Source of the DNA: Methanoculleus horonobensis
Lineage (GTDB): Archaea > Halobacteriota > Methanomicrobia > Methanomicrobiales > Methanoculleaceae
Direction: 5' to 3'
DNA length: 64,000 bases
Assembly (NCBI RefSeq): GCF_001602375.1
Contig: NZ_BCNY01000008.1
Span: 62,001-126,000, forward strand
Position 1 is the first letter of the stretch. Each line of letters opens with the position of its first letter. The translations under genes and the position numbers were made by a program. Of this stretch, positions 24,609 through 41,826 are shown piece after piece. A model generated the notes under the pieces. The model searched no databases. It was not told where the DNA came from and saw nothing but the letters and a program-made list of their open reading frames with translations.

Positions 24609-26048
24609 ATGAAGAGCAAATTACAGTCGATCATCGATAGAATTGGGTCGATCAGGAATATCGGTGTCGTCGGCATGGGCTACGTCGGCATCCCCGCTGC
24701 GGCGCTCTTTGCGGACGCACCCGAATTCGAGTTCGTCCGGGGGTTCCAGCGGGATTCACCGTCCTCAGGCTACAAGGTAGCCATGCTGAACCGGGGAGAG
24801 TCGCCGCTCAAGGGCGAAGAGCCGGGGCTGGAAGAACTGCTCGGAAAGGTCGTCGGCGCGGGGAAGTTCCGGTGTACCTCGGACTTCTCCGAGATCGCGG
24901 CGTGCGACGCGGTGACACTCGCCATCCAGACCCCGTTTAAGGATCAAAAAGACCTGATTCCCGACTTCTCGGCCCTGATCGAGGGGCTCCGGCAGGTGGG
25001 AAAGCACCTCGCGGAAGGCACGCTCGTGGTTCTCGAGTCGACAGTCACCCCCGGCACGACCGAGCGCATGGCCCGCGAAATCCTCGAAGAGGAGTCGGGG
25101 CTCGTCGCCGGGGAAGAGTTCTGCCTCGCGCACGCTCCCGAACGGGTGATGGTCGGACGATTGCTTCGCAATATCCGGGAGCACGACCGGATCGTCGGCG
25201 GGATCGATGAGGTCTCGACGGCGCGGGCGATCGAACTCTACCGTCCGGTCCTGACGACCGGGAAGATCATCCCGATGACCGCGACCGCTGCCGAGGTGAC
25301 GAAGACCGCCGAGAACGCCTTCCGCGACCTCCAGATCGCCGCCGCAAACCAGCTGGCGCTGCACTGCGAGGCGATGGGCGTCAACGTCTACGACGTCCGG
25401 GCCGGGATTGACTCCTTGAAGGGAGAGGGGATCACCCGGGCAGTTCTCTGGCCGGGTGCCGGGGTAGGCGGCCACTGTCTCACGAAGGACTCCTGGCACC
25501 TCGAACGGGGCGCACAGGTTCTCGGCGGCGACCTCTGGTACCCGCACGGGGCCGAGTCGATCTTCGGCGTCGCACGGATGATCAACGAGTTCATGCCCCG
25601 GCACATGGTTCACCTGACCCTCGAGGGGCTCGAGCGGGCGGGGAAATCCCCGGATGGTGCAACGGTCGCGCTCCTCGGGTGGGCGTTCATCCAGAACTCG
25701 GACGATACCCGGAACACCCCCGCGGAGCCTTACCTCGCGGAGATGAAGGAGGCGGGAGCGGAAGTCCGGGTTCACGACCCGTTCGTGGAGAGGTATCCGG
25801 GGATAGAGGTTTCGCACGACCTGGACGCGGCTCTTGAAGGCGCGGACGTCGTCACCATCTTCACCGGCCACCACCACTATGCCTCTCTCGAACCGGTGCG
25901 GGTGAAGGAGTTGTCGGGGAAAGAGCATCCGGTCATCGTCGACGGCAGGAACATCGTCGACCCGGACGCCTTCATCCGGGCAGGCTTCGTCTACAAGGGC
26001 ATCGGCCGCGGCGACAAAAACAACCATCCGATTCGGCAGTTACCATGA
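24609..26048 (+). CDS. wecC: UDP-ManNAc dehydrogenase-type nucleotide sugar dehydrogenase
   Basis: This protein of about 479 residues oxidises a UDP-sugar C6 alcohol to a uronic acid in two NAD-dependent steps. An N-terminal Rossmann segment (NIGVVGMGYVGIPAAALF) is followed by LESTVTPGTTE, the central helix with KTAENAFRDLQIAAANQLA, and the catalytic cysteine in PGAGVGGHCLTKDSW. A C-terminal UDP-binding domain follows (LLGWAFIQNSDDTRNTPA). ATG 24609 is preferred over TTG 24597. It overlaps wecB by four bases, so together they would make UDP-ManNAcA from UDP-GlcNAc. Confidence 0.88.
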   Translation: MKSKLQSIIDRIGSIRNIGVVGMGYVGIPAAALFADAPEFEFVRGFQRDSPSSGYKVAMLNRGESPLKGEEPGLEELLGKVVGAGKFRCTSDFSEIAACDAVTLAIQTPFKDQKDLIPDFSALIEGLRQVGKHLAEGTLVVLESTVTPGTTERMAREILEEESGLVAGEEFCLAHAPERVMVGRLLRNIREHDRIVGGIDEVSTARAIELYRPVLTTGKIIPMTATAAEVTKTAENAFRDLQIAAANQLALHCEAMGVNVYDVRAGIDSLKGEGITRAVLWPGAGVGGHCLTKDSWHLERGAQVLGGDLWYPHGAESIFGVARMINEFMPRHMVHLTLEGLERAGKSPDGATVALLGWAFIQNSDDTRNTPAEPYLAEMKEAGAEVRVHDPFVERYPGIEVSHDLDAALEGADVVTIFTGHHHYASLEPVRVKELSGKEHPVIVDGRNIVDPDAFIRAGFVYKGIGRGDKNNHPIRQLP

Positions 26049-27136
26049 AGATCGTATCGATCGTCGGCGCCCGGCCGCAGTTCATCAAGTGCGCTCCCGT
26101 CTCCCGGGAACTCAGGAAGGAGCACGAGGAGATCCTCGTCCACACCGGACAGCACTATGACCACGGCATGTCAGAGATCTTCTTCGAGGAACTCCGCATC
26201 CCGAAGCCCGACTACAACCTCGGCATCGGCTCCGGGACCCACGGCCGCCAGACCGGGGCGATGCTCGGGGCGATCGAGGACGTTCTTGAGACGGAGAAGC
26301 CCGACATCGTTATGGTCTACGGCGACACGAACTCGACCCTCGCGGGCGCGCTTGCGGCGGCAAAACTCCACATTTCGGTGGCGCACGTCGAGGCAGGGCT
26401 CCGGAGCTTCGACCGCCGGATGCCCGAGGAGGTGAACCGGGTGCTCACCGACCACGCATCCGACCTCCTCTTCTGCCCGACGGAGACCGCCGTTGCAAAC
26501 CTCGCGGCCGAGGGAGTCACGGAGGGCGTTCACCTCGTCGGGGATGTGATGTGTGACGCGATAAACTACAACCGCGCGGTCGCGGAAGAGCGCTCCCGGA
26601 TCCTCGAGGACGTCGGGGTCGAACCCGGGGGCTACCTCGTCGTCACCGTCCACCGGCCGTCGAACACCGATAGCAGGGAGAATATGGCTGCCATCCTCAG
26701 CGCGCTTGGGGAGGCTGAAAGACCGGTCGTCTTCCCGGTCCACCCCCGGACACGGCGCTACCTCGGCGAACACGGCCTTCTTACGAAGATGCCGGAGAAC
26801 GTCCGGGTCATCGAACCGCTCGGCTACCTCGACATGCTTCACCTGATGGCGCACGCGGAAAAAATCCTCACCGACTCCGGCGGAGTCCAGAAGGAGGCCT
26901 ACATGCTTGGCGTCCCCTGCATCACCCTCCGGGAGAATACCGAGTGGGTTGAGACGGTCGAGGCCGAGTGGAACATGCTTGTGGGGGCGGAGAGGGAGAG
27001 CATCATCGATGCTATTCGGCATTTTTCGCCCGAATCACAGCAGACAGAGGTATTCGGGAACGGAAACGCCAGTGCTTTGATCGGGGAGATCCTCATCCGG
27101 CACCAGAATGCCGGGGAGACACCGAATATCCCCTGA
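26045..27136 (+). CDS. wecB: UDP-GlcNAc 2-epimerase (non-hydrolysing)
   Basis: This 363-residue GT-B-fold enzyme interconverts UDP-GlcNAc and UDP-ManNAc. Signatures are IVGARPQFIKCAPV, HTGQHYDHGMSEIFFEEL, VYGDTNSTLAGALAA, HVEAGLRSFDRRMPEE, TVHRPSNTDS and LTDSGGVQKEAYMLGVPC. The ATG overlaps the dehydrogenase stop (atga). It is the last GC-rich gene before base composition drops at the tandem repeat array. Confidence 0.95.
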   Translation: MKIVSIVGARPQFIKCAPVSRELRKEHEEILVHTGQHYDHGMSEIFFEELRIPKPDYNLGIGSGTHGRQTGAMLGAIEDVLETEKPDIVMVYGDTNSTLAGALAAAKLHISVAHVEAGLRSFDRRMPEEVNRVLTDHASDLLFCPTETAVANLAAEGVTEGVHLVGDVMCDAINYNRAVAEERSRILEDVGVEPGGYLVVTVHRPSNTDSRENMAAILSALGEAERPVVFPVHPRTRRYLGEHGLLTKMPENVRVIEPLGYLDMLHLMAHAEKILTDSGGVQKEAYMLGVPCITLRENTEWVETVEAEWNMLVGAERESIIDAIRHFSPESQQTEVFGNGNASALIGEILIRHQNAGETPNIP

Positions 27137-27410
27137 AACCCCCGTTCCGGGAGATGGCCAATTAACTGTGAGAAATGACCGTGGGTGATGCCGGCCGCCC
27201 AAACTCAAGGTCTCATCTGCTGCGAGAGGAGGGAATTTAGCGGCATTTATCCACAACAAGGCAGCAATGCTGTTTTTGAGATACTACATCTAATTCTAGA
27301 ATTACACGAATATGTTCTGAATATCGCTTACCATCGGGGTATCTCATCCCAGCGTAATATTGAGGTTGATCTTTATCGGAACTGGATGCGGACCGACGAC
27401 ATATCCACCA
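27137..27410. other. Intergenic region before the tandem array
   Basis: No gene is recognised. The GC content falls sharply here and the sequence contains a palindromic attctagaat (27292-27301) whose core resembles the unit of the repeat array that follows. A plus-strand open frame at 27185-27439 has no recognisable motif and runs into the array. Confidence 0.5.
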
Positions 27411-27640
27411 TTATTCTAGGTTATTCTAGGTTATTCTAGGTTATTCTAGGTTATTCTAGGTTATTCTAGGTTATTCTAGGTTATTCTAGGTTATTCTAGG
27501 TTATTCTAGGTTATTCTAGGTTATTCTAGGTTATTCTAGGTTATTCTAGGTTATTCTAGGTTATTCTAGGTTATTCTAGGTTATTCTAGGTTATTCTAGG
27601 TTATTCTAGGTTATTCTAGGTTATTCTAGGTTATTCTAGG
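27411..27640. repeat. Perfect 23-copy tandem array of a 10-bp unit
   Basis: The unit ttattctagg is repeated 23 times without a single change over 230 bases. The period of 10 is close to one turn of the helix, so every A/T-rich half-unit would face the same side of the DNA. Each unit carries the near-palindrome ctag. There are no spacers, so it is not a CRISPR array. It lies at the junction between host-like sugar genes and the AT-rich pseudaminic-acid island. Confidence 0.97.
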
Positions 27641-27746
27641 TGTGTAGATTTGCCTGCTCTTCATCCTCATTGCATAGTATATGAATCATCTGCACTTGAA
27701 AGCATCTTTCAGAGTTATTTTATCATATTACAACAGAATTTGTCAT

Positions 27747-28838
27747 ATGGAAAAGACGTGCTCTCGCTGTATCCTAGATAATACATTTCCAAATATTTAC
27801 TTTGATGAAGATGGTGTGTGCAACCAGTGCCACCAGTACGACAGAAGATGCAGTAAATACGCCACCAATACACAAAATCAGAAGAAACTGCGCTCTCTGG
27901 TCGAAAAGGTGAAGTCGAGAGGGAAGAATCAGGAGTACGACTGCATCCAGGGTGTAAGCGGAGGCCGGGACAGCACATATACCCTATATCTTCTCAAACA
28001 GTGGGGCCTTAATCCGCTTGCCGTTCATGTCGATAACAGGATGGACACTTCGATCGCGGTGAAAAACATAAACAATGCCTGCCGGAAACTTGATGTCGAC
28101 CTGCACAACCACACCGTCGAATGGGAGGAGTTTAAGGATCTTCAGAGAGCCTTCCTTTTTGCATCGGTGCCCTCTGTTGACATCCCGTCCGACCATGCGT
28201 TTGTCACGATATTATACAACATCGCAGAGGAGAACGATATAAAATATGTCTTTAGTGGTTCATCGTTCCGAACAGAGGGGCAGGGATCAATAGAATGGTC
28301 ACTCCACGATGACGAGCGCTTCATCCGTGACATACATAGGCAATATGGAACAATGAACCTGAACCACTACCCTCTGCGAACTATCAGTGACGTTTTCAGG
28401 TGGTACCGAAAAGGTATCCGGGAGATCCGTCCGCTTTACTGGATGGATTACCACCATAGTGATGTGGATCCGCTTCTGGAGAGGGAACTCGGTTGGGAGT
28501 ACTACGGTGGACATCATTTCGAGTCGATATTCACTCGCTGGGCCTTTGCCTTTCTGCTACCCAGAAAGTTCAACATCGACAAGAGACTTACCGACTATGC
28601 AACGCTTGTTCTGTCCGGCCAGATGACAAGAGGAGAAGCGTTCAACAAAATGACGAAATCAATATATCCGGCTGAGCTGGAAGCGAAAGATCGGGCATTT
28701 ATTCTTGATACACTCGGGTTGACCGAGGAGGAGATGGACTCAATCATCAATGCGGTTCCAAAGCGGAACTTCGATTACGACCATCACTCACGTTTCCATC
28801 GTATACTCACGTACCTGATATCCCCGTGGAGGTATTAG
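27747..28838 (+). CDS. N-acetyl sugar amidotransferase (WbpG/PseA family), copy 1
   Basis: The protein has about 363 residues. An N-terminal zinc-type motif C-S-R-C with CNQCHQYDRR is followed by the PP-loop QGVSGGRDSTYTL. Family members convert an N-acetyl group on a nucleotide sugar or nonulosonic acid to an acetamidino group. ATG 27747 is chosen because it begins the conserved MEKTCSRC and follows an AT-rich tttatcatatta element; ATG 27681 would add 22 residues. WbpG relatives usually need HisH/HisF-like partners, which are absent here. Codon use is AT-rich compared with the host genes. Confidence 0.8.
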   Translation: MEKTCSRCILDNTFPNIYFDEDGVCNQCHQYDRRCSKYATNTQNQKKLRSLVEKVKSRGKNQEYDCIQGVSGGRDSTYTLYLLKQWGLNPLAVHVDNRMDTSIAVKNINNACRKLDVDLHNHTVEWEEFKDLQRAFLFASVPSVDIPSDHAFVTILYNIAEENDIKYVFSGSSFRTEGQGSIEWSLHDDERFIRDIHRQYGTMNLNHYPLRTISDVFRWYRKGIREIRPLYWMDYHHSDVDPLLERELGWEYYGGHHFESIFTRWAFAFLLPRKFNIDKRLTDYATLVLSGQMTRGEAFNKMTKSIYPAELEAKDRAFILDTLGLTEEEMDSIINAVPKRNFDYDHHSRFHRILTYLISPWRY

Positions 28839-29299
28839 GTGGAGTGTCGATATTTATGTTCAGTCGATTTTTCCGATCCTGAGATCTACATGAGTTAGAA
28901 AAAATTTTCTTTCCTCTCCATATTCACATCCCTCACTGCAAGAGGAAATAATGATAATTTATAATCCTAATATTATCTGTGCGGAAGATCGGGCTCGTAT
29001 GTGGCTGCTCGACGGTGCTGAAAAGCGAGGCACGCCAGAAACTCAAGGAGATCCGCGGGGGACCCTACATCTACCGTCGACAAGCGTTTGCGATAAGCGA
29101 ATCTCTTCGCTGATGAAAATGAGCACGTATTTTGGTCGGCTCACGTGGGATGCGGGCTCATCCTCAAAGGGGCGCGGGATGCACATCTCTTGCTTCCTCT
29201 CGGACGATCCTAGAATCGGCTTACTTCGGATTCTTCGAAGAGTACCTGTACTGTCACTCGTTGCAGAGCGTATACACTGTATTGCTGCGTGTGAAGATG
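28839..29299. other. 460-base region with gene debris, not identified
   Basis: The first 110 bases are AT-rich. From about 28979 to 29200 the sequence turns GC-rich, like host coding DNA. A short frame (GTG 28979 to stop 29110) reads RKIGLVCGCSTVLKSE and continues for about 43 codons before a stop. Two other frames stay open further on, but none matches a known family. The pattern suggests a decayed gene fragment. Confidence 0.4.
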
Positions 29300-29719
29300 T
29301 CAGTGAAAATCTGCATGGGGGGTTGCCTCGATTATGTGTTTAGAAATGTATGTTGTATTGGGTGGAATATCAGTGAGAACCACAGAACCAGCGGCAATGA
29401 TAGCGTTATCACCGATGTGAACTGGTCCAAGGATGATCGCACCGGCGCCAATCTGAACATTGTTGCCGATGATAGCACGTTCTTCTTCAGTTGATTTCTG
29501 TCCGATGGTGATATTCGACCGGACGGTACAATTCTTCCCAAATCTGGTGCCGTCTCGGATGGTAATCCCATATGGATGACCGAACCAGGTGGATTCCGGG
29601 ATCTCCCGGCAATTCACATCACACAGGAGAAGACGAAGCGAAAAACGCTTTTTAACGCACCAGTATGTATTTATCGCGGAATTGATAATATGATATCGCA
29701 TGAAATCCAGAATGGTCAT
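29300..29719 (-). CDS. Hexapeptide-repeat acyltransferase (CysE/WbbJ type)
   Basis: The protein has 139 residues. From about residue 50 it shows left-handed beta-helix hexapeptide repeats (FGHPYGITIRDGTRFGKN, NVQIGAGAIILGPVHIGDN) ending in AAGSVVLTDIPPNT, as in serine and sugar O-acetyltransferases. The N-terminal 45 residues are basic and helical. It stands alone on the minus strand within the glycan island, so a sugar O-acetylation role is plausible. It is shorter than full-length CysE and close to small maltose/sugar acetyltransferases. Confidence 0.8.
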   Translation of the reverse strand: MTILDFMRYHIINSAINTYWCVKKRFSLRLLLCDVNCREIPESTWFGHPYGITIRDGTRFGKNCTVRSNITIGQKSTEEERAIIGNNVQIGAGAIILGPVHIGDNAIIAAGSVVLTDIPPNTTYISKHIIEATPHADFH

Positions 29720-30154
29720 TAGATGTCGACCCCACTTATTGTAATACTTTGAAGTGCACAGTATTAAAATCCCCGATTAGTTCTCATACTCTCTTAGTGC
29801 ACGAGTTCCAAGTGCAGTCCTCTTCAGTTCACTACATTCACCACTATTGTGGAGGATCATCCGGAAATCTTCTTTCAGGAAGCTTTCTTGTCTCTACAGG
29901 ATGTCTCCTAAAACCCATTGCATGGTTTTGGCTGTTTCAGCTGTTCACAAGACTGCACCAGAAGTATAGCAACCTCTTGAGTCCTACTTCCCGAGCAATC
30001 ATGATTCACACTTTCAGCACTTGTATCTCTGGTTATCCGCCAGTTGCATCTTTACGAAACCCTAATTTAGTTTCATTACTAGAAGATAAGACCTGGATAA
30101 TGGACCCCAAGTAAACAAAATGGTGGACATGAAATACTTGTACCACGAGGAATT
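29720..30154. other. 435-base AT-rich gap, possible transposase debris
   Basis: No intact gene is supported. A plus-strand frame at 29749-30114 has poor codon use. On the minus strand, near 30030, one frame reads DNQRYKC, a stop, then KCES, faintly like the zinc-binding N-terminus of an insertion-sequence protein, but it is broken by stops. The last bases contain gaggaatt, the ribosome binding site of the next gene. Confidence 0.35.
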
Positions 30155-31885
30155 ATGCAACCAGAAACAGTTATGGCTTATGTCAACCGACTAAAAAATA
30201 CTAAACTTACCTGTGGAAAGACCCTGTTAGAGCTTACCACATATGATGACGTTGCACTCTGGTGGTTTGCTGATATGGCGTTCCATTTCTATTTACTCCA
30301 TCGGGAGTACGAACGTTCTGACGAAGAAGCGGGATTCTACCATACGATTAAGTCAAATAGACATTTCAAGGCACTTGTCCGCCAGATCTACTATCTCAGC
30401 GATTATCTTCTTGCGCTCTTCGCATACCTGACGCTCCTTTGGTTTAACAGAACAAGGCAAGTTAAATTGTTGGGGCAGGAGGGAAAGACAGTTCTCATCA
30501 CAGGGGCGGATATCGAGTGGAGAACATTTTATGCAGGTGACCTGGTCAAACCAATCCTTTCGGATCAGTTTTTTCATGCGATCGTTCAAAAACTCAATGA
30601 AAAAGGAAATTACAGGGTCGTCTCGACATACCCCTTGAAGTGCCCATATATCCCGTCGATCCGGGTCGTCATCAGCAAGTGCAAACATCGGGACGTGCTC
30701 CACATCCCGTTTAACCTCTTCTTCCGGTTCCGGATAGGGAGGGTGAGATACAAGGCGAAGCATCATTTCAGAAGGGTGTGGGATGTCCTGAAGGACGATA
30801 GGAAACTTGCTGAACTCTTAGAGATTCCAGGGGATCCGGACAGGAACATCCGGGAAAAAATCAAGAACTACTTTGCGTATGACAGGCCGGAATATGTCTT
30901 CGCTGAGTTTGCCAAATTTATAGCCATGGCCGAAGTTATGCTTGAGAGGGTCAGACCGGTGGCCGTCGTCATTGAGGACGAATACAGTGTATTTGAGCGG
31001 GCCCTCGTCGTAGCAGCGAAAAGAAAGGGTATTCCCTGTGTCGCAATCCAGCACGGCGCTATCTACGAATTGCATAAAGGATACATATATCAGGCTGGCG
31101 AGGTTTCACCTGATCTCTCTGTGAAAACGCCTTTCGTGCCCACTGCCGACGTTACTGCAGTATATGGTCAGTACCACAAAGATTTGCTGACTCAGGTAGG
31201 AGGATATCCGGAGAGTGCTGTCGTTGTCACCGGCCAGCCGCGGTATGATCGGATGATTAATCTGATTTCACAGTCGGCTTGCTCAGAGTTGATTGAAAGA
31301 TGGCATCTGGATCCTTCAAAAAAGATTGTGTTATGGACGACGCAGTGCCACGGCATCTCTGATTCTGAGAACGAACTGAATTTTCAGGCGGTCTTTGAGA
31401 GTATGTCATTAATTGAGGATGTACAACTCATCATTAAACAGCATCCGGGAGAGCCGAAACGGTATAATACAATGATCCAGGAGCATCTGAGGAAGTATTC
31501 AATTGATGCCCATATTGTTGGCAAAGATGCAGATACGTTAGGGTTGCTCGCCGCAAGCGATCTTGTCCTGTTACTTAACTCAACAATAGGGCTTGAAGCC
31601 GTTGCGCTTCAAAAGCCGCTGATCGTGATGAATCTTGGTGGACAACCAGATATTGTAAATTATGTTCAGGAGGGTGTTGCATACGGCGTCTATAAGCCTG
31701 AAGATCTTAAACCGACTATAGAGCAACTCCTATGTGACGATTCCTGTCTGGCACGGAACAGAGAAGAGTTTATCCGGAAGCACCTCTACAAAGTTGATGG
31801 AAAGGCAGCAGAGCGCGTTGTTGATCTTATTGAAGAATGTGTAGATACAAGAGAGACAAAGACAGCCTACCGGCAGAGTTCATGA
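30155..31885 (+). CDS. Large GT-B-like surface glycan transferase
   Basis: The protein has 576 residues and starts at ATG 30155 after gaggaatt. A helical N-terminal region of about 110 residues ends in a hydrophobic stretch (YLLALFAYLTLLWF). The C-terminal 350 residues resemble the CDP-glycerol glycerophosphotransferase/UDP-GlcNAc 2-epimerase-like GT-B group, with AIQHGAIYELHKG, VVTGQPRYDRM, LIIKQHPGEPKRY and a terminal LVLLLNSTIGLEAVALQKPLIV nucleotide-binding region. It probably transfers a sugar or polyol phosphate to a glycan. The specific donor is unknown. Confidence 0.65.
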   Translation: MQPETVMAYVNRLKNTKLTCGKTLLELTTYDDVALWWFADMAFHFYLLHREYERSDEEAGFYHTIKSNRHFKALVRQIYYLSDYLLALFAYLTLLWFNRTRQVKLLGQEGKTVLITGADIEWRTFYAGDLVKPILSDQFFHAIVQKLNEKGNYRVVSTYPLKCPYIPSIRVVISKCKHRDVLHIPFNLFFRFRIGRVRYKAKHHFRRVWDVLKDDRKLAELLEIPGDPDRNIREKIKNYFAYDRPEYVFAEFAKFIAMAEVMLERVRPVAVVIEDEYSVFERALVVAAKRKGIPCVAIQHGAIYELHKGYIYQAGEVSPDLSVKTPFVPTADVTAVYGQYHKDLLTQVGGYPESAVVVTGQPRYDRMINLISQSACSELIERWHLDPSKKIVLWTTQCHGISDSENELNFQAVFESMSLIEDVQLIIKQHPGEPKRYNTMIQEHLRKYSIDAHIVGKDADTLGLLAASDLVLLLNSTIGLEAVALQKPLIVMNLGGQPDIVNYVQEGVAYGVYKPEDLKPTIEQLLCDDSCLARNREEFIRKHLYKVDGKAAERVVDLIEECVDTRETKTAYRQSS

Positions 31886-31978
31886 TGTGCTGAAGATTCT
31901 TAATTCTGCATTTTCCTTGTTTTTTAATCTCTTTCAAATGAATAACATCCGTTAAACTAATTACCCAAAACGTGGACT

Positions 31979-32962
31979 ATGATGATGATGTCCTGCTTCG
32001 ATGGTAAAACCATCCTCGTGACGGGTGGCACAGGCTCGTTTGGAAAAATGTTTACATCGCTCCTGCTTAAGGAGTGGAACCCCGACAGCGTCCGCATCTA
32101 CTCGCGGGGAGAACTGCTCCAGTGGGAAATGCAACAGAATGTTCAGGATGAGCGCCTCCGTTTCTTTATCGGTGATGTCAGGGATAAAGATCGCCTTTAT
32201 CGCGCGATGAACGATGTCGATATCGTCGTCCATGCCGCCGCGCTCAAGCAGGTGCCTGCGGCAGAATACAACCCTATGGAGGCTGTAAAGACGAACATCG
32301 ACGGGGCATCCAATATCATTAACGCATCCATCGACAACGGCGTCGAAAAAGTCATGGCGTTGAGCACCGACAAGGCAGTACACCCAGTCAACCTCTACGG
32401 TGCAACCAAAATGGTTGCAGAGAAACTCTTTGTACAAGGTAATGCCTATGTCGGTGAAAGAAACACGAGATTTGCCTGCACCCGCTACGGGAATGTAGTC
32501 GGGAGCAGGGGAAGCATCATACCACTCTTCCTGGAACAGAGAAAACAGGGGCGGGTGACGATAACCGACGAACGTATGACTCGGTTCTGGCTGACGCTCG
32601 AACAGGGCGCTCGATTCGTTGCCCAGTGTATAGAGACGATGAGAGGTGGAGAGATCTTTGTCCCTAAGATTCCCAGTATGAGAATTACTGATCTGGCGAA
32701 AATTGTTGCACCAGACTGCGAAGTCGAGATCATCGGTATCCGTCCCGGCGAGAAACTCCATGAGGTTCTCCTCACTGAAGATGAAGCCCGGCACTCGAAG
32801 GATATGAGGGACTACTTCGTTATAGAGCCCGAGCTGAAGATCTGGAGCCGGAACAACGGCCGTGAGGGGAAGTCACTGCCCGAAGGATTCCGGTACTCGA
32901 GCGAGAGCAATCCGATCTGGCTCGACGCTGATAAACTGATGTCAATGGTGGATATTTCGTAG
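31979..32962 (+). CDS. pseB: UDP-GlcNAc 4,6-dehydratase (inverting) PseB
   Basis: This short-chain dehydrogenase fold enzyme of about 327 residues catalyses the first step of pseudaminic acid synthesis, C4,C6 dehydration with C5 inversion. NADP binding is at VTGGTGSFGKMF. The PseB/FlaA1 active-site segment reads LSTDKAVHPVNLYGATKM, giving the expected Asp-Lys and Tyr-x3-Lys. Four ATG codons stand in tandem at the start (31979-31990). The C-terminal IRPGEKLHEVLLTEDEA is typical. pseC starts 11 bases later. Confidence 0.92.
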   Translation: MMMMSCFDGKTILVTGGTGSFGKMFTSLLLKEWNPDSVRIYSRGELLQWEMQQNVQDERLRFFIGDVRDKDRLYRAMNDVDIVVHAAALKQVPAAEYNPMEAVKTNIDGASNIINASIDNGVEKVMALSTDKAVHPVNLYGATKMVAEKLFVQGNAYVGERNTRFACTRYGNVVGSRGSIIPLFLEQRKQGRVTITDERMTRFWLTLEQGARFVAQCIETMRGGEIFVPKIPSMRITDLAKIVAPDCEVEIIGIRPGEKLHEVLLTEDEARHSKDMRDYFVIEPELKIWSRNNGREGKSLPEGFRYSSESNPIWLDADKLMSMVDIS

Positions 32963-32973
32963 ATTGCGCGGCG

Positions 32974-34134
32974 GTGACGAGACCAATGCGGTTCATCCCA
33001 TATGGGCATCAGTTGATCGACGACGACGACATTCTGTCCGTCGTAGAGGTGTTGAAGAGCGACTGGCTCACGACGGGACCGGCTGTCGATCTCTTTGAAA
33101 AGGAACTTGCCAGTTACGTTGGCGCCCGGCATACTGTCGCGGTGAACAGCGGCACGAGTGCCCTGGATATCGCAGTCCAGGCTCTCGATCTCCCGAGAGG
33201 CAGCGAGATTATCACAACCCCGTTCACGTTTGCCGCCACGAGTAATGCTATCCTCTATAATGGTCATATCCCGATCTTTGCGGATATCGATCCCATAACG
33301 AGGAATATTCATCCGGATGAGATAAGGAAACGGATCAGTTCAAAAACCCGAGCAATAATCTACGTTGACTATGCCGGGCACCCGTGCGCGATCGACGAGA
33401 TCGAGAAGATTGCCCGGGAACATGGCCTTCTGCTCATTGAAGATGCATGCCATGCACTCGGGACTTCGTACAAAGGCCGTAAGATCGGTACGTTCGCCGA
33501 TATGACAGTTTTCAGTTTCCACCCAGTAAAGCCCATAACCACCGGGGAGGGAGGGGCCGTGGTCACCGAGAATTCGGAGCTTTATGCCAAACTCAGGCTG
33601 CTCCGGAGCCACGGTATTACCCGCGACGTAGGGGATATGTTCGGTGAAGGGGCGTCATGGGGATACGACATGCAACTCCTCGGTCGTAACTACCGGATGA
33701 CCGACATTCAGGCAGCGCTGGGCGTATCTCAGTTGAGGAAGATTGACTCCTTTATCGAGAGGAGAAACGAACTTGCAGCATTGTACACAAGGGCTCTATC
33801 CGACCTGGAATGGCTTGACCTTCCCCGGACCCAGGAACACGTGACTCATGGGTGGCACCTCTATACGATTCTGCTCAAAGGGCTTGAACGGAGCACTCTA
33901 TTCCCCTACCTGAAAGAACGGGGGATCGGTGTCAACGTTCATTATATCCCCACCTATAAATTCAGTTACTACCAGAGGCACTATCCCCAGAACGCCAATA
34001 CTTTCCCGAGCACTGAGGATATATTCAGCAGAATAATAACTTTACCTCTCTATCCGGGTATGAGCGATGAGGATGTGGAGTATGTCTCTGTTCGGTTGCA
34101 CGAAGCAGAATCAGACCTGAAAATTTCGATATAA
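32974..34134 (+). CDS. pseC: Pse pathway 4-aminotransferase PseC
   Basis: This PLP-dependent aminotransferase of about 386 residues of the DegT/DnrJ/EryC1 family aminates the 4-keto product of PseB. Marks are AVNSGTSALDIAVQAL, TTPFTFAATSNAILYNG, EDACHALG and the PLP lysine in FSFHPVKPITTGEGGAVV, nearly identical to the PseC consensus. The start is GTG 32974 or ATG 32986; the latter begins MRFIPYGHQ, the usual N-terminus. It sits between pseB and the cytidylyltransferase. Confidence 0.92.
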   Translation: MTRPMRFIPYGHQLIDDDDILSVVEVLKSDWLTTGPAVDLFEKELASYVGARHTVAVNSGTSALDIAVQALDLPRGSEIITTPFTFAATSNAILYNGHIPIFADIDPITRNIHPDEIRKRISSKTRAIIYVDYAGHPCAIDEIEKIAREHGLLLIEDACHALGTSYKGRKIGTFADMTVFSFHPVKPITTGEGGAVVTENSELYAKLRLLRSHGITRDVGDMFGEGASWGYDMQLLGRNYRMTDIQAALGVSQLRKIDSFIERRNELAALYTRALSDLEWLDLPRTQEHVTHGWHLYTILLKGLERSTLFPYLKERGIGVNVHYIPTYKFSYYQRHYPQNANTFPSTEDIFSRIITLPLYPGMSDEDVEYVSVRLHEAESDLKISI

Positions 34135-34149
34135 GAGGGTGCTCTACAT

Positions 34150-34881
34150 ATGCATGTGGTGGCTATCGTTCAGGCGAGGATGGGGAGCACACGTCTCCCG
34201 GGCAAGGTGATGAAAGATCTTCTCGGGAAGCCGGTGCTGACCAGAGCCATCAACCGAATCCGGCGTGCAAAGTGTATCGACGAGGTTGTGATTGCGACCA
34301 CCATCAAACCCGAGGATGACGCGATTGCCGCGCTCTGCGAGGGGGAAGGGTGGCAGTGTTTCCGGGGAAGTGAGAACGATCTTCTCGACCGGTATTACCG
34401 GGCTGCACAGGCGTTTAATGCCGATGTTGTTGTTCGTATCACCTCTGACTGTCCGATGATCGATCCAGAGGTCATCGACAAAGTGATAGGAGAGTTTCTG
34501 AGCCTTAGAGAGACGATCGACTATGCCTCAAACACTCTCTCGCCGCGCACCTTCCCGCGTGGCCTTGATGTTGAGGTGATGACCTTTGAAGCCCTCGAGC
34601 ATGCATGGAGGGAGGATAACGATCCTGCGTTGCGAGAGCACGTAACTCCGTACATCTACCAGAACCCTGAAATATTCCGGCTTCATCAGGCTGCCAATGA
34701 AGTAGATCTCTCGCATCATCGATGGACACTGGACACACCTGAGGATCTCGCGCTCATCCGTGCCGTATACAGTCACTTTGGGAACGATCGGTTCACTTGG
34801 ATGGATGCTATCGAGTATCTGGATCAGCATCCAGAGATCATGGAGATTAATAGTGATATCAAGCAAAAGACGATAGAATGA
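34150..34881 (+). CDS. SpsF-like cytidylyltransferase in the PseF position
   Basis: This 243-residue nucleotidyltransferase begins VVAIVQARMGSTRLPGKVMKDL, the SpsF-type variant of the CMP-sugar synthetase fold; classical PseF starts with a PARGGS-type motif. RITSDCPMIDPEVID carries the metal-binding Asp. Its position between pseC and the Pse methylase suggests that it activates the nonulosonic acid with CTP, the step otherwise done by PseF, which is not found in the window. That assignment is inferred. A role as another sugar nucleotidyltransferase is possible. Confidence 0.7.
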   Translation: MHVVAIVQARMGSTRLPGKVMKDLLGKPVLTRAINRIRRAKCIDEVVIATTIKPEDDAIAALCEGEGWQCFRGSENDLLDRYYRAAQAFNADVVVRITSDCPMIDPEVIDKVIGEFLSLRETIDYASNTLSPRTFPRGLDVEVMTFEALEHAWREDNDPALREHVTPYIYQNPEIFRLHQAANEVDLSHHRWTLDTPEDLALIRAVYSHFGNDRFTWMDAIEYLDQHPEIMEINSDIKQKTIE

Positions 34882-34921
34882 GATGATAGATAGTATTTCA
34901 ACAAAATGGAGATGTAAATAC

Positions 34922-35551
34922 ATGGTTAATCAATTTAAGACAGAACAGGAGTCTTTCTGGGCCGGTGAGTTCGGAACAGAGTATATAAGACGTAACCAGG
35001 GTGCGGAACTTTTAGCTTCAAACCTTGTCTTTTTTAGCCAAGCCTTGCGTTCCGCTCATAAGCCCAGGGATTGTATAGAGTTTGGAGCAAATATCGGTAT
35101 GAACCTTAAGGCATTAAGGCTTCTCTATCCACAGCAGGAACAGTTTGCTATTGAAATTAACGAGACTGCCGTGGCTGAATTACGTACGCTACTTCCGCCA
35201 GAAAACGTATTCCATGCATCAGTTCTCGATTATTCTGCTGTACAACAGTATGACTTAGTCTTGGTAAAGGGAGTCCTGATCCATATTAATCCAGACTATT
35301 TGCCACAGGTATATGATGCGCTGTACCGTGCAACTGGTCGATATTTGCTCATCTGCGAGTACTATAATCCAAGTCCAGTTCAAGTTCCTTATCGAGGCCA
35401 CAGTGGTCGCCTGTTCAAACGTGATTTTTGCGGGGAGATCCTGGAGCGTTACCCCGATCTCAAACTCACTGACTACGGTTTTGTCTACCATCGTGATCCC
35501 AACTACCCGCAAGATGACATTACATGGTTTTTGTTAGAGAAGAGAGGATAA
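34922..35551 (+). CDS. Pseudaminic-acid-associated methyltransferase
   Basis: This SAM-dependent methyltransferase of about 209 residues matches the Pse-associated methylase family. It begins VNQFKTEQESFWAGEFGTEYI and has the motif I-like CIEFGANIGMNLKAL. The mid-region LVKGVLIHINPDYLPQVYDAL and the late YRGHSGRLFKRDF are also family-like. ATG 34922 is chosen; an upstream GTG-type extension to 34883 lacks conserved sequence. It is AT-rich and sits between the cytidylyltransferase and the amidotransferase. The methyl acceptor is unknown. Confidence 0.8.
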   Translation: MVNQFKTEQESFWAGEFGTEYIRRNQGAELLASNLVFFSQALRSAHKPRDCIEFGANIGMNLKALRLLYPQQEQFAIEINETAVAELRTLLPPENVFHASVLDYSAVQQYDLVLVKGVLIHINPDYLPQVYDALYRATGRYLLICEYYNPSPVQVPYRGHSGRLFKRDFCGEILERYPDLKLTDYGFVYHRDPNYPQDDITWFLLEKRG

Positions 35552-35552
35552 A

Positions 35553-36704
35553 ATGATGAAATACTGCACACGATGCGTGATGCCGGACACAAAGCCCGAT
35601 TTACAACTCGATACGGAGGGCGTTTGTAATGCCTGCCGCAGTTATGAGCGAAGGAATGAGATTAATTGGGACGAAAGAAAACGAGAATTATTACAGATTC
35701 TCGAAAAATACCGTCAACCCGATGGCAGTAATTGGGACTGTATAGTCCCTGTGAGTGGTGGAAAAGATAGCACCTACCAAGTCATTCGTATGCTCCAGTT
35801 AGGCATGAATCCACTCTGTGTCACCTCGACAACCTGTGATCTATCCGATATAGGTCGAAAAAATATAGAGAATTTGAAACATCTGGGAGTCGACTATGTG
35901 GAGTTTTCTCCGAACCCATTAATTCGAGCTAAACTCAACAGAATTGGACTTGAGCAGGTAGGGGACATATCATGGCCAGAACATATCGGCATTTTTACCA
36001 TCCCGGTGCGGGCAGCAGTGCAATTCAATGTGCCCCTGATTATTTGGGGGGAGAATCCACAGAATGAATATGGTGGTCCTGCTGCAACAGCCGAAAGTAA
36101 TATCCTTAATCGTAGATGGCTTGAGAGGTTTGGGGGGTTACTTGGGTTACGGATTTCTGATGTAGTTGGCATCGATGGTATTGACCATCGGCACCTTCTT
36201 GCATATACATACCCCTCAGACGAAGACCTTGCGCATGTCGGAGTGACAGGCCTCTTTTTAGGCTATTATCTGCCATGGGATGGTTTATCAAATGCACTGA
36301 TCGCACAGGCTCATGGTCTCACCACATACCATAAAACTGTGGAGGGCTCCATGGTAAACTATGAAAATCTAGACAACTATCAAACAGGTATTCACGATTA
36401 TTTCAAGTTCTTGAAATTTGGCTTTGGGCACGCAACAGATTTAGCGTGTATGCAAGTAAGGCGCGGGCGTCTAACCCGTCAAGATGCGCTGGAAATAGTA
36501 AAAAAACACGATGGAAAGTTTCCTTGGAACTATCTTGGTAAACCCTTAGAGAACATTCTGAAACCCCTGGAACTAACAGTTGACGAATTTATTCAGATCT
36601 GTGATAAATTTACCAACAAAAAACTTTTCCGTCAAGACAGTACGGGTAATCTGATTAAAGACAAAGATGGGAATCTGATAAAAATCAATTACGATAATCT
36701 ATAG
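35553..36704 (+). CDS. PseA-like N-acetyl sugar amidotransferase, copy 2
   Basis: This 383-residue protein has the same architecture as the copy at 27747: N-terminal YCTRCVMPDTKPDL with CNACRSYERR, then the PP-loop VPVSGGKDSTYQVIRM. It matches the family that includes PseA of Campylobacter, which converts Pse5Ac7Ac to the acetamidino form. The C-terminus carries an unusual double repeat, TGNLIKDKDGNLIKINYD. It starts two bases after the methylase stop and is one of the AT-richest genes of the window. No HisH/HisF partner is adjacent. Confidence 0.82.
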   Translation: MMKYCTRCVMPDTKPDLQLDTEGVCNACRSYERRNEINWDERKRELLQILEKYRQPDGSNWDCIVPVSGGKDSTYQVIRMLQLGMNPLCVTSTTCDLSDIGRKNIENLKHLGVDYVEFSPNPLIRAKLNRIGLEQVGDISWPEHIGIFTIPVRAAVQFNVPLIIWGENPQNEYGGPAATAESNILNRRWLERFGGLLGLRISDVVGIDGIDHRHLLAYTYPSDEDLAHVGVTGLFLGYYLPWDGLSNALIAQAHGLTTYHKTVEGSMVNYENLDNYQTGIHDYFKFLKFGFGHATDLACMQVRRGRLTRQDALEIVKKHDGKFPWNYLGKPLENILKPLELTVDEFIQICDKFTNKKLFRQDSTGNLIKDKDGNLIKINYDNL

Positions 36705-36714
36705 GATGGGATAT

Positions 36715-36837
36715 ATGTATGATTTCATCTGCCACAGGTGTAAGTATGGTTCATTTTACTCAGCAAATACTTGCCGAGGCAGGAAAGCGCTTCGTTTGTG
36801 TGGGAATGCTTACATGCATAAATTTTGCAACTCCTAG
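36715..36837 (+). CDS. 40-residue Cys-rich mini-protein
   Basis: The frame from ATG 36715 to TAG 36837 encodes 40 residues beginning MYDFICHRCKYGSFYSANTC. Cysteines at 6, 9, 20, 29 and 38 give C-x2-C-x10-C-x8-C-x8-C, suggestive of a small zinc- or iron-binding protein. It fills the 136-base gap between the amidotransferase and pseG-H, and a ggatggg tract lies 6 bases upstream of its ATG. The pseG-H ribosome binding site aggaggtga overlaps its stop codon. It could also be an untranslated spacer. I know of no family for it. Confidence 0.4.
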   Translation: MYDFICHRCKYGSFYSANTCRGRKALRLCGNAYMHKFCNS

Positions 36838-36840
36838 GAG

Positions 36841-38397
36841 GTGAAGTGCATACCCCCAAGCTTCGTCTTTCGCACAGATGCTTCGCACACCATCGGTACC
36901 GGTCACGTCATACGTTGTCTCACACTGGCCAACGCCCTAGCCAAGAAAGGCGCTGAAGTCTCATTTATCTTCCGCGAGCACGATGGCCACTTCTGTGACC
37001 TGATCGAAGAACAAGGGTTTATCATCCACCGCCTTCCAGCGGCAGACAGAAAATTTGAAGCCCCCGCAACCCCGGCCCACGCCGCCTGGCTCGGAGCGAC
37101 ATGGCAGGAAGACGCCGACCAGACCGGTTCTATTATCAAGACTCTGGGCGTCAAACCCGATTGGCTGGTGGTGGATCATTACGCTCTTGATTCTCGCTGG
37201 GAGCGTGCTCTCCGCCCATTAGTAGGACGGATCTTTGTCATCGACGACCTCGCCGACCGGGCTCACGACTGCGATCTGCTGCTGGACCAGAACCTTTTTG
37301 CAGATATGCAGACTCGCTATGCCACCAAGGTGCCGGAGGATTGTCACCTGTTGCTGGGGCCGGAATACGCCCTCCTGCAGCCAATCTATGCCGAACTGCA
37401 CGGCCGCATCCCGCCGCGGGAGGGGCCGGTCAAGCGTATCCTCCTCTCATTTGGCGGGGCAGACCGCGACAACCTGGCCGGTCGCGCGTTAGTGGCGTTC
37501 CTGAGCCTGAATCGCCCTGATATCGATGTTGATGTCGTGATCTCTGATAGTAGTCCTTATGCTCCGGGGATCCGGGCTCAAGCAGCGGGGCATGCCAATG
37601 TTCATCTGCACAGCAACCTCCCGACCCTAGCACCGCTTATGGCGAGAGCCGACCTTGCCATCGGCGCGGCCGGGACGACCAGTTGGGAACGACTGTGCCT
37701 CGGGCTTCCTGCACTCGTTGTGACACTTGCGGAGAACCAGCGACCGATTGCTGATGAGCTTCAACGGTTGGGCTTGGTGCGCTGGCTGGGGCATAAAGAT
37801 GAAGTGTCTGAACAGAGTATCAGACTGGCTCTGGCTGAACTGTTTGAAGGGAGCATTGATGAAGAATGGTCCCTGTGCTGTCGAGCCACTGTAGACGGTA
37901 CAGGTACGAAGCGCGTTAGTGCCGCTTTGACCATAACTGCGGAAACACCACTTTTAGTGCGTCATGCCCGCCTGTCCGATGAAGGGTTGCTCCTCGCCTG
38001 GGCAAACGACCCGGAAACACGACAGAACTCCTTTTCATCTGACCCCATCCCTGTGGAGGAACACCGCCGGTGGTACCGTAGCCGGCTTCGGGATCTGGAC
38101 GGCTGCCATCTCTATATTGTGGAGACCAAGGAGGGAATCCCCATGGGGCAGGCACGGTTTGAGAGAGAAGAGCAGGCCTGGGTAATCAGCTATTCACTTG
38201 CACCCCAGTTCCGCAATAGAGGCTTCGGTCGGCCACTGCTCGAAGCAGCTCTGTTAAAAATGCGATCTGAACATCCGGGTGCACTCGTTCTTGGCAGAGT
38301 GAAGTCAGACAACCTGCCTTCGCGCAGAATTTTTGAAACGCTTGGCTTTGATACCCTGTCAGATGGGGAGGGGATTGCGTATCAACGTCTGCTCTGA
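36841..38397 (+). CDS. pseG/pseH: PseG-PseH fusion (UDP-sugar hydrolase + N-acetyltransferase)
   Basis: The protein has 518 residues with two domains. Residues 1-350 match PseG, which removes UDP from UDP-6-deoxy-AltdiNAc: FRTDASHTIGTGHVIRC with the catalytic His, VVDHYALD and AIGAAGTTSWERLCLGLP. Residues about 370-518 match PseH, the GNAT enzyme that acetylates the 4-amino group earlier in the pathway: LVRHARLSDEGLLLAWAND, EEHRRWY, and acetyl-CoA binding APQFRNRGFGRPLLEAAL. The annotated start is GTG 36841, but a perfect aggaggtga (36836-36844) overlaps it, so initiation at the in-frame ATA 36850 cannot be excluded. Confidence 0.88.
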   Translation: MKCIPPSFVFRTDASHTIGTGHVIRCLTLANALAKKGAEVSFIFREHDGHFCDLIEEQGFIIHRLPAADRKFEAPATPAHAAWLGATWQEDADQTGSIIKTLGVKPDWLVVDHYALDSRWERALRPLVGRIFVIDDLADRAHDCDLLLDQNLFADMQTRYATKVPEDCHLLLGPEYALLQPIYAELHGRIPPREGPVKRILLSFGGADRDNLAGRALVAFLSLNRPDIDVDVVISDSSPYAPGIRAQAAGHANVHLHSNLPTLAPLMARADLAIGAAGTTSWERLCLGLPALVVTLAENQRPIADELQRLGLVRWLGHKDEVSEQSIRLALAELFEGSIDEEWSLCCRATVDGTGTKRVSAALTITAETPLLVRHARLSDEGLLLAWANDPETRQNSFSSDPIPVEEHRRWYRSRLRDLDGCHLYIVETKEGIPMGQARFEREEQAWVISYSLAPQFRNRGFGRPLLEAALLKMRSEHPGALVLGRVKSDNLPSRRIFETLGFDTLSDGEGIAYQRLL

Positions 38398-38445
38398 TGA
38401 GGATAACTGGAACTATGCGTACATCGCAGGAGAATAAAGGATACC

Positions 38446-39498
38446 ATGAAGGTCGCACATCAAAGAATCGGCCCAGACGCTCCTCCCTTCATCATCGCGG
38501 AGATGTCTGGAAACCATAACGAGTCCCTAGATCGAGCGCTGGAGATCGTTGATGCGGCAGCAAAAGCAGGTGCCCATGCCCTCAAACTCCAGACATACAC
38601 CGCCGACACCATCACGCTCGACATTGACGAGGGGGAGTTCTTCATCGATGACGAGCAGAGTCTCTGGAAGGGGTGCAGCCTGCACGATCTCTATGAACGT
38701 GCCTCCACGCCGTGGGAGTGGCATGTACCGATCATGGAGAGGGCGCGGGAACTCGGCATGATCTGCTTCTCCACGCCGTTCGACGAGACGGCGGTCGACT
38801 TTCTTGAGGAACTGGATGTACCGGCCTACAAGATTGCTTCCTTCGAGAATGTGCACCTCCCGCTGATCCGGAAAGTGGCAGCCACCGGCAAGCCGATGAT
38901 CATCTCCACCGGGATGGCCACGCTCGCCGAGATTGATGAGGCGGTGCGCACCGCCCGGGAGGCCGGGTGCCGTGATCTGGTGCTGCTCAAGTGCACCAGC
39001 ACCTACCCGGCCACGCCGGAGAACAGCAACGTGGTCACCATTCCCCACATGCGGGAGTTATTCGGCTGTGAGGTGGGCCTCTCCGATCATACCATGGGCA
39101 TCGGTGCGGCGGTCGCGGCGGTAGCCCACGGCGCAACGGTGATCGAGAAGCATTTCACGACCCGCCGCGCTGACGGTGGGGTGGACAGCACGTTCTCGCT
39201 GGAACCGGAGGAGTTGCATGCCTTGGTGGTGGAGACGGAGCGCGCCTGGCAGTCGCTGGGGAACGTTGCCTACGGGCCGAGCGATGCGGAAAAGAAGTCC
39301 CTGATCTTCCGCCGCTCTCTTTATATCGCCCAGGACCTCAAGGCTGGTGACGTGCTCACCCGTGAGAACCTGCGCTGCGTGCGTCCCGGCCTGGGTCTGG
39401 CGCCGAAGTACTATGAGGTGCTTCTAGGCAAGAGAGTTATCCGGGATGTAGTAAGGGGGACACCGATGAGTTGGGATTTTGTGGTGGGCAAAAGGTAA
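38446..39498 (+). CDS. pseI: Pseudaminic acid synthase PseI
   Basis: This 350-residue NeuB-family enzyme condenses the 6-deoxy-AltdiNAc sugar with phosphoenolpyruvate. The N-terminal TIM barrel shows IIAEMSGNHNESLDRAL, HALKLQTYTADTITLD, IISTGMATLAEIDEAV and the metal site region LSDHTMGIGAAVAAVAHGA. The C-terminal 60 residues form the antifreeze-like SAF domain (RSLYIAQDLKAGDVLTRENL). The residues TADTIT, in place of the sialic acid synthase equivalent, favour PseI over NeuB. It is more GC-rich than the preceding amidotransferase. The ATG follows ggagaataaagg. Confidence 0.93.
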   Translation: MKVAHQRIGPDAPPFIIAEMSGNHNESLDRALEIVDAAAKAGAHALKLQTYTADTITLDIDEGEFFIDDEQSLWKGCSLHDLYERASTPWEWHVPIMERARELGMICFSTPFDETAVDFLEELDVPAYKIASFENVHLPLIRKVAATGKPMIISTGMATLAEIDEAVRTAREAGCRDLVLLKCTSTYPATPENSNVVTIPHMRELFGCEVGLSDHTMGIGAAVAAVAHGATVIEKHFTTRRADGGVDSTFSLEPEELHALVVETERAWQSLGNVAYGPSDAEKKSLIFRRSLYIAQDLKAGDVLTRENLRCVRPGLGLAPKYYEVLLGKRVIRDVVRGTPMSWDFVVGKR

Positions 39499-39598
39499 AA
39501 TTTGGGCAGTGCTCCTGAATATGACTGAAAACTGATCTTAGAAGATTTGATCGATCTTCACTGAACACGAATGCGGTTCCACTGAAAAAAGGGAAGGA

Positions 39599-39630
39599 TG
39601 CGGATTGTAAAGTGCATGATAAAATCCGCA
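39599..39630. terminator. Hairpin between convergent pseI and radical SAM genes
   Basis: The arms tgcggat (39599-39605) and atccgca (39624-39630) pair around an 18-base AT-rich loop. The site lies in the 195-base gap between convergent genes, where termination is expected. There is no long T-run right after it on the plus strand. Confidence 0.3.
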
Positions 39631-39693
39631 CAATGATAGTTGTACTTCCTATTATTGGTTGCTTCTTAGTGCGCTATTGAATTTCTCGGATTA

Positions 39694-41112
39694 TCAGATC
39701 TTTTTAACCGGTCCCCTCTCCTTTGGGGATCGATAATACTGTGTTTTAGTCAACTGCTGGTCTAGCAACCCTATTTTCAGTTCCTTGTTGCACCGCTGCA
39801 ACTCGTCATTCAGCACTTTTTGAAAGAGCGTATCCGACATCGTGGTAAGGTTAACCCTGAGATCTTGGCGGTCTCCGAGTTTGAGCAAATACTCTTCTTC
39901 GTCGTCTTTATCGATAATTCCCCTATCTATTGCGTGTTGGTACATCTCTGAACCAGGAAATGGCAACAGGTATCCTGCAGAGGGGTAAATCCCATTCTGG
40001 ATACAGCAATCTATCGTGCTTTTTATTGTTTCCGGGGTTTCCTGGGGGAAACCAAATACAAGGCTTGTCCAGGCAGGAATTCCCGCTTTGATGAAGAGAC
40101 TCGTCTGGAAAGTGAACTGCTCTGGGGTCATATTTTTGTTCATAGCGGCCAGTATTTCTGGACAGGAAGATTCCAGTGAATATCCCATGCCCACGCAGCC
40201 GATCTCCTTCAATGTCTGTAACAACTCGAGGTCCTCTTCAAGAGTAAAAAGATTCCCGCGGCAGTCTGCGGTCCAGAAGAAATGCAATCCAGACCCCTTC
40301 ACCGCCTCGATAAACTCCCTGACCGAATGTTTTGATGAGAACGTCAACTCATCGTGGAATCCAATATAGTTTATTCGGTAATTTTCAATTAAATGGCGTA
40401 CTTCTTCAATGACGTGTTTCCAAGGGCGGTGGCGGTATGGAACGTTCCGGAAGACATGGTAACAAAAGGTACACCGGTTCACGCATCCCCGCGCAGTATT
40501 CACCGCGATGCCCCGGATCTCGCTACGAGGGAGGGGAGTTGGTTCATTGAGGGAGTTGCGATACCCCTCGATGTATGCCTCCATATCCCACATTGAATAA
40601 TCTATGATTGGAATTTCTGAAAGGTTCTTTATTGGGGGGCGGTCTGGTGTTCTGTATATTTTTGAATCGCGGGTCTTAAAAACGATTCCCTGTACCGTGG
40701 CAAGGGCCTTGCCGTTTTCCAAGGCATCCAGCAATTCGACAATTGTGATGTCACCTTCTCCGATGACCGCAATGTTCGTTTCTGTTTTGCTAAGCAATAT
40801 ATCCGGTATTGAATCGGCAACGGAATTACCCGCGATAATTATGGAATCAGGGTAAAATTCACGTATCATTCTTGCATATTCCTTGATCGTTTTGTACCCA
40901 GTTATGATACACCCCATCAGAATGACATCATAATGGTTCTTTGCAAGAAAGGCACGAATTTCATCGTCACTGTATCTATACGCATCAACATCAAGAAGAT
41001 CAAAAGTGAACCCGGCATTTTTCAATGCAGTGCCGATATATGCAAGGCCGAGCGGGAGGAATTTTACAGGCGATTTAGGCCTGAGCGCGACATTAATCAA
41101 CAATATTTTCAT
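39694..41112 (-). CDS. B12-binding-domain radical SAM protein
   Basis: This 472-residue protein begins with a cobalamin-binding-like Rossmann domain (ILLINVALRPKSPVKFLPLGLAYIG), followed by the radical SAM motif GCVNRCTFCYHVFRN at about residues 210-224, giving C-x3-C-x2-C. The core continues through YIGFHDELTF and GYSLESSCPEIL. This architecture is common in methylases and other enzymes that modify lipids or antibiotics. Here it sits on the opposite strand at the end of the Pse genes and may further modify the glycan, but the substrate is unknown. Base composition is AT-rich like the island. Confidence 0.85.
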   Translation of the reverse strand: MKILLINVALRPKSPVKFLPLGLAYIGTALKNAGFTFDLLDVDAYRYSDDEIRAFLAKNHYDVILMGCIITGYKTIKEYARMIREFYPDSIIIAGNSVADSIPDILLSKTETNIAVIGEGDITIVELLDALENGKALATVQGIVFKTRDSKIYRTPDRPPIKNLSEIPIIDYSMWDMEAYIEGYRNSLNEPTPLPRSEIRGIAVNTARGCVNRCTFCYHVFRNVPYRHRPWKHVIEEVRHLIENYRINYIGFHDELTFSSKHSVREFIEAVKGSGLHFFWTADCRGNLFTLEEDLELLQTLKEIGCVGMGYSLESSCPEILAAMNKNMTPEQFTFQTSLFIKAGIPAWTSLVFGFPQETPETIKSTIDCCIQNGIYPSAGYLLPFPGSEMYQHAIDRGIIDKDDEEEYLLKLGDRQDLRVNLTTMSDTLFQKVLNDELQRCNKELKIGLLDQQLTKTQYYRSPKERGPVKKI

Positions 41113-41332
41113 TCAAATCACCCGTCAGATATATCCTGTAATCTTTTACTCTCTGCTGGTTTAACCATTGTGTATTCGCTGATATTTAGTGCTCTACCTT
41201 TCATATGTTCTTACCTCTCTTAGAGTTACTCCAAACCATAGTACCTTTGAACCTTCTAAAAAATCTTTGATATTATCCCTCCTGCAGAACATCTCGGAGG
41301 AATGATCCTCAAGTGATCCAACACCCCACTCT
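41113..41332. other. AT-rich gap before transposase remnant
   Basis: About 220 bases hold no convincing gene. The region contains the promoter of the minus-strand radical SAM gene and short AT-rich runs. The minus frame at 41194-41487 is a shadow of the transposase remnant. Confidence 0.4.
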
Positions 41333-41790
41333 AGCATAATGGGATCATTGACGGAGTTTTCGACACCCTGGACATTGCCGTGGTCATCGACGCGATCCAC
41401 ACGATGTGGCATAACTACCTCACCCATGGCAAACCCGTCAAGGACATGGTACTCAACGCCCTTAGGTTCGTGGAGCACCGACCCCATCTATCCCTTCTCC
41501 ATCTCGATTTCTCGAGGATATCACTATCAACAGACTCCTAGGAGCAGGGACCACTCCCGACCATCTTAACGATAGTGTCCTAGGTAGAACGCTCGTGCGA
41601 TCACCGCTCATGATCTGGTCGAACTCTTCAACAAGATCGTCATGTGCTGGAGCACCTGGGGGTGTGCATAGAGATGGCCCGAGTGATATACGAGATATGC
41701 GGTGATTATACCCGGACGAAGAGGGCAAACAGAATATATCATGCCGCCAGATTGTTAAGTAGGACGACTGATTCTTCTCTGTTTGCATGA
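41333..41790 (+). pseudogene. IS1634-family transposase remnant (DUF4277 region)
   Basis: Three plus-strand frames read in order give the N-terminal part of an IS1634-type transposase. The first gives NGIIDGVFDTLDIAVVIDAI and HGKPVKDMVLNAL (from 41337). The second, from 41508, gives FLEDITINRLLGAGTTPDHL and NDSVLGRTL. The third gives DLVELFNKIVM from about 41616. Frameshifts separate the pieces and the catalytic core is missing. Terminal inverted repeats were not found. It marks an old mobile-element insertion at the right edge of the glycan island. Confidence 0.75.
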
Positions 41791-41826
41791 GTCAGTACAC
41801 TAAACCAACCCACACCTGATACATCT

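Follow-up and report, generated by a model that had tools for sequence, protein, structure and literature searches.

A perfect 23-copy decamer array, probably a young minisatellite, upstream of a putative surface-glycan promoter in a methanogen

The window analysed here is a stretch of 64 kb from a Methanomicrobiales genome, probably of the genus Methanoculleus. The genome carries two methyl-coenzyme M reductase alpha genes, which indicates that the host is a methanogen. GC content lies at about 0.62-0.65 in the first 27 kb and at about 0.45-0.47 beyond, with a step from about 0.64 to 0.45 at the array. The conserved sugar-nucleotide genes on the left of this change end with wecB; on the right is a variable cassette whose first gene is wbuX (Table 1). 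The two are separated by a short intergenic region that contains a tandem array of the decamer TTATTCTAGG. The wbuX reading frame opens at 27681, and comparison with homologues places its probable start at the conserved ATG at 27747. As read from the sequence, the cassette genes are predicted to be those of a pseudaminic-acid-type sugar; the PseG/PseH-like and PseI/NeuB-like assignments were made by eye.

Table 1. Features of the array locus, with coordinates in the window.
Feature	Position	Strand	Evidence or remark
wecB-type UDP-GlcNAc 2-epimerase, last gene of the conserved left flank	26045..27136	+	TIGR00236, 342 bits; flank kept in congener G011
Decayed wecB 3' remnant, like the 3' end adjoining wbuX in congener G009	27261..27324	+	Local alignment
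Decamer array, TTATTCTAGG x 23 and one further base	27411..27641		Tandem Repeats Finder
TATA-like motif GTATATGAA	27677..27685	+	GTATAT core kept in both congeners (G009, G017); putative promoter
Second conserved AT-rich motif TTTTATCATA	27718..27727	+	Putative alternative core promoter or 5' leader
wbuX-type N-acetyl-sugar amidotransferase, opening the variable cassette	27747..28838	+	TIGR03573, 267.5 bits
Cassette body: glycosyltransferase, PseB, PseC, cytidylyltransferase, methyltransferase, second WbuX, PseG/PseH-like and PseI/NeuB-like ORFs	30155..39498	+	

Congeners G009 and G017 share with the window the wbuX gene (82% and 79% DNA identity, respectively) and the genes after it as far as about 31.9 kb, and the right flank is common again. 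No DNA matching about 31.9 to 41.7 kb of the window was found in G009 or G017. Judged from these alignments, the pattern is that of a surface-glycan locus with an exchanged inner cassette. The segment from 27137 to 41830 appears to act as a swappable surface-glycan cassette, with conserved flanks and inner genes that differ in G009, G017 and G011.

The left flank of the window matches G011 up to position 27195, after which a different gene is found in G011. A relative of that gene sits in the right flank of the window, near 41.8-42.9 kb. Between wecB and the array, the remnant aligned without gaps to the end of the G009 wecB gene with a score of 36, a value reached by none of 300 shuffles (shuffle maximum 28-32). 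In its reading frame, which contains an internal stop, the remnant reads CF*DTTSNSRITRICSEY, compared with CFGDGTASSKVAQILSEYY in G009 (translated by eye). The gapless match indicates that, after the host-type wecB, the window retains the decayed tail of another wecB which formerly adjoined wbuX. Such a remnant next to an intact wecB looks like the scar of an earlier replacement. The end of G011 conservation near 27195 and the decayed remnant in between place the array at a recombination border. An 84-aa ORF (27185-27439) overlaps the remnant in another frame and matched no family in Pfam or NCBIfam; it is therefore probably not a gene.

Downstream of the array, a TATA-like motif begins after 36 bp and the probable wbuX start is reached after 106 bp. 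The AT-rich motif at 27718 reads TTTTATC(A/G)TA across the window, G009 and G017. GTATAT and TTTTATC(A/G)TA are putative promoter elements; if they act as such, the array precedes a surface-glycan promoter with the glycan cassette downstream of it.

In the one assembly available, the 23 units are 100% identical and contain no indels. Tandem Repeats Finder reported this array as the only one in the whole 64 kb (period 10, 23.1 copies, 100% matches, score 462), in agreement with the first-pass annotation, which had described a perfect 23-copy repeat of 10 bases. Its further statement that the array lies where host-like composition gives way to the cassette agrees with both base composition and synteny. 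A scan allowing one mismatch recovered 23 perfect units, all in phase, where 1.44 were expected from dinucleotide shuffles; no further copy with one mismatch or fewer was found outside the array in the window. At window composition, perfect period-10 runs of even three copies are expected about 9e-8 times per 64 kb. The array thus consists of head-to-tail copies beyond chance, as a minisatellite or tandem array does, and its edges are abrupt, with no decayed units on either side. All six frames through it contain stops, so that the array is non-coding, and a coding repeat of a surface protein was ruled out for the same reason.

The unit was sought in the same genome and in related genomes. Elsewhere in its own genome, TTATTCTAGG was not found except for one match with 3 mismatches in 17 bases, and a dispersed repeat family was rejected on this result. 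Across the phylum, 393 genomes were searched in all (up to 2 mismatches in 30) and the array was found in no other; nor was any other CTAG-centred decamer array found in 99 other relatives. At the equivalent wecB-wbuX junction the array is absent from G009 and G017, though the junction and the promoter are common to both. Recent expansion, which had been proposed from the perfect identity of the units, is borne out by that identity together with the absence from these two syntenic congeners. Sampled genomes of the genus contain 32-38 tandem repeats per Mb, mostly of two copies (the density in the own genome is an estimate from about 250 kb), and the array is therefore best regarded as a local event. 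Tandem arrays with units of 45-46 bp occur in the own genome (L132, 1-147 and 9824-10017), and similar-looking arrays of 46-bp units occur in congeners G020 (L103) and G003 (L111).

To relate the array to the array-free junction, we cut it in silico to n copies and aligned the result to G009. Both flanks aligned after reduction to about one copy, the scores being 203.5 for n=1, 194.5 for n=0 and 157.5 for n=23. Random decamers equalled the one-copy score in 3% of cases and shuffled units in 8%, and alignment against G017 did not discriminate between copy numbers. These alignments weakly suggest that the array grew in place from one decamer, the weakness lying in the fraction of random decamers that align equally well.

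Taken together, the array is probably a young, lineage-specific minisatellite that grew in place by replication slippage. Growth would have begun with the duplication of a single decamer at the junction, by replication slippage or repair. Slipped-strand mispairing and unequal exchange could then have multiplied the tandem copies rapidly, this DNA being under no coding constraint, and such fast recent growth without coding constraint would account for the perfect identity of the units. Copy number would be expected to differ among cells and strains. The effect on transcription of the wbuX-led cassette would most likely be neutral to mildly quantitative, since the array lies upstream of the core promoter and not within it. 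Judged from one genome, the array may also be under stabilising use.

The number of copies has to be considered apart from the existence of the array. It is possible that a short-read assembler looped the repeat arbitrarily and that the true array is shorter or longer; this would touch copy number only and is compatible with the minisatellite reading. At 231 bp, the array is longer than a 150-base read and than the k-mers in common use. The assembly also includes several contigs of 137-393 bases, probably of the kind usual for short-read graphs, which suggests that it was made from short reads. Against this, the 186-kb contig continues with matching flanks on both sides, and an assembler loop requires many real tandem copies, so that the array itself would still be real.

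A regulatory role would require that length changes reach the promoter. Under this proposal the array is a promoter-length contingency locus, in which a change in the number of copies would displace or modify an upstream element and so switch or tune the glycan cassette (phase variation). Its position would agree with such a role: the array heads a surface-glycan cassette and ends a short distance 5' of the TATA-like motif that G009 and G017 also have, and there are bacterial precedents in the hmwA promoters (PMC2424069) and vlhA (PMC6258824). The length of the unit bears on the proposal in both directions. A 10-bp step, about one helical turn, would keep upstream sites roughly on the same face of the helix, but it would also blunt on/off switching by phasing. 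The congeners carry the same putative promoter without the array, and only a single such locus was found in the genome. We consider this role unlikely. Its extension to an archaeal contingency locus, in which decamer slippage alters expression of the pseudaminic-acid-type cassette and gives heritable cell-surface variation in a methanogen, we consider quite doubtful. Nothing relevant was found in the literature on the TTATTCTAGG unit or on archaeal repeat phase variation.

CTAG is depleted in the genome, with observed/expected ratios of 0.34 in the sampled own genome and 0.19 in its congeners, and the array therefore carries about half of the CTAG sites in the window (23 of 45). This enrichment would fit a platform of CTAG-centred decamers on which a DNA-binding protein or CTAG methylase could act. 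Such a platform is nevertheless improbable, since the density of CTAG follows automatically from repeating one CTAG-containing unit, the genome has no array of the unit at any other place and no candidate binding protein was found. Whether the array is CTAG-methylated is a testable question raised in passing rather than a result.

Horizontal import from Bacteroidales is very improbable as the origin of the array. Three exact TTATTCTAGG units occur at one other place in a 257-Gb genome collection, as an exact 30-mer within a 6.8-copy array in Bacteroidales UBA3653, but no similarity of the flanks was seen. That genome has about 428 tandem repeats per Mb (400 kb sampled), including two perfect period-10 arrays in the sample. 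Given some 52,000 distinct decamer units and the 257 Gb searched, we estimate that one or more coincidences would arise provided that the frequency of such arrays is at least about 0.2 per Mb. The match was therefore rejected as a coincidence in a repeat-rich genome. The density of short tandem repeats in UBA3653 (L079-L098) is extreme, with many of period 7. A two-unit pattern had no match in the viral collection, and a viral origin was rejected on this basis.

Curvature of the array, which the first-pass annotation had raised as a possibility, is predicted to be modest and no greater than its composition would give. In a wedge model, 120 bp of the array gave a contour/end ratio of 1.15, compared with 3.6 for a phased A-tract control. 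Shuffled units of equal composition, repeated in the same way, gave a mean of 1.30, and 59.5% of them were at least as curved as the array. The ratio exceeded that of 99% of ordinary window segments, as would be the case for many 10-bp repeats. Intrinsically curved (phased A-tract) DNA was rejected accordingly. A structured RNA was also rejected, as no Rfam match was found across 20-36 kb. As a single strand, the 230 nt folded into weak, regular 5-bp hairpins (-7.7 kcal/mol, centroid unpaired; z = -4.0 against shuffles), a z value that results from the repetition of a unit whose CTAG is palindromic.

The array is probably, for the most part, an ordinary minisatellite, of interest chiefly because cells might differ in its length and so in expression of the cassette. 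If the length varies, the array would provide a simple strain-typing marker for this methanogen. It would also make it possible to test directly whether promoter-repeat slippage, which is well known from bacteria, serves surface-glycan variation in archaea, for example against viruses. If the length does not vary, the array illustrates cleanly how a minisatellite can arise at a recombination border.

A survey of prokaryotic satellites reported 21 satellites in Methanoculleus marisnigri and species-specific arrays (PMC6749651). The present array resembles the surveyed satellites and minisatellites in being a tandem short unit of the 10-30 nt class, but differs from them in its 23 identical copies and its non-coding site at the border of a glycan cassette. 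In the hmw1A and hmw2A promoters of Haemophilus influenzae, the number of 7-bp repeats was measured against mRNA (PMC2424069). There, too, a tandem repeat precedes a surface-determinant gene; however, those are bacterial promoters with measured mRNA, whereas the present array has an unrelated unit and host and is known from sequence. In vlhA of Mycoplasma gallisepticum, GAA repeats lie about 40 nt upstream of the start sites and 12 repeats are reportedly required (PMC6258824). Both tracts lie a few tens of bases 5' of a surface-gene core promoter, a putative one in the methanogen, but vlhA has a trinucleotide repeat in a multigene family and the methanogen a single decamer locus.
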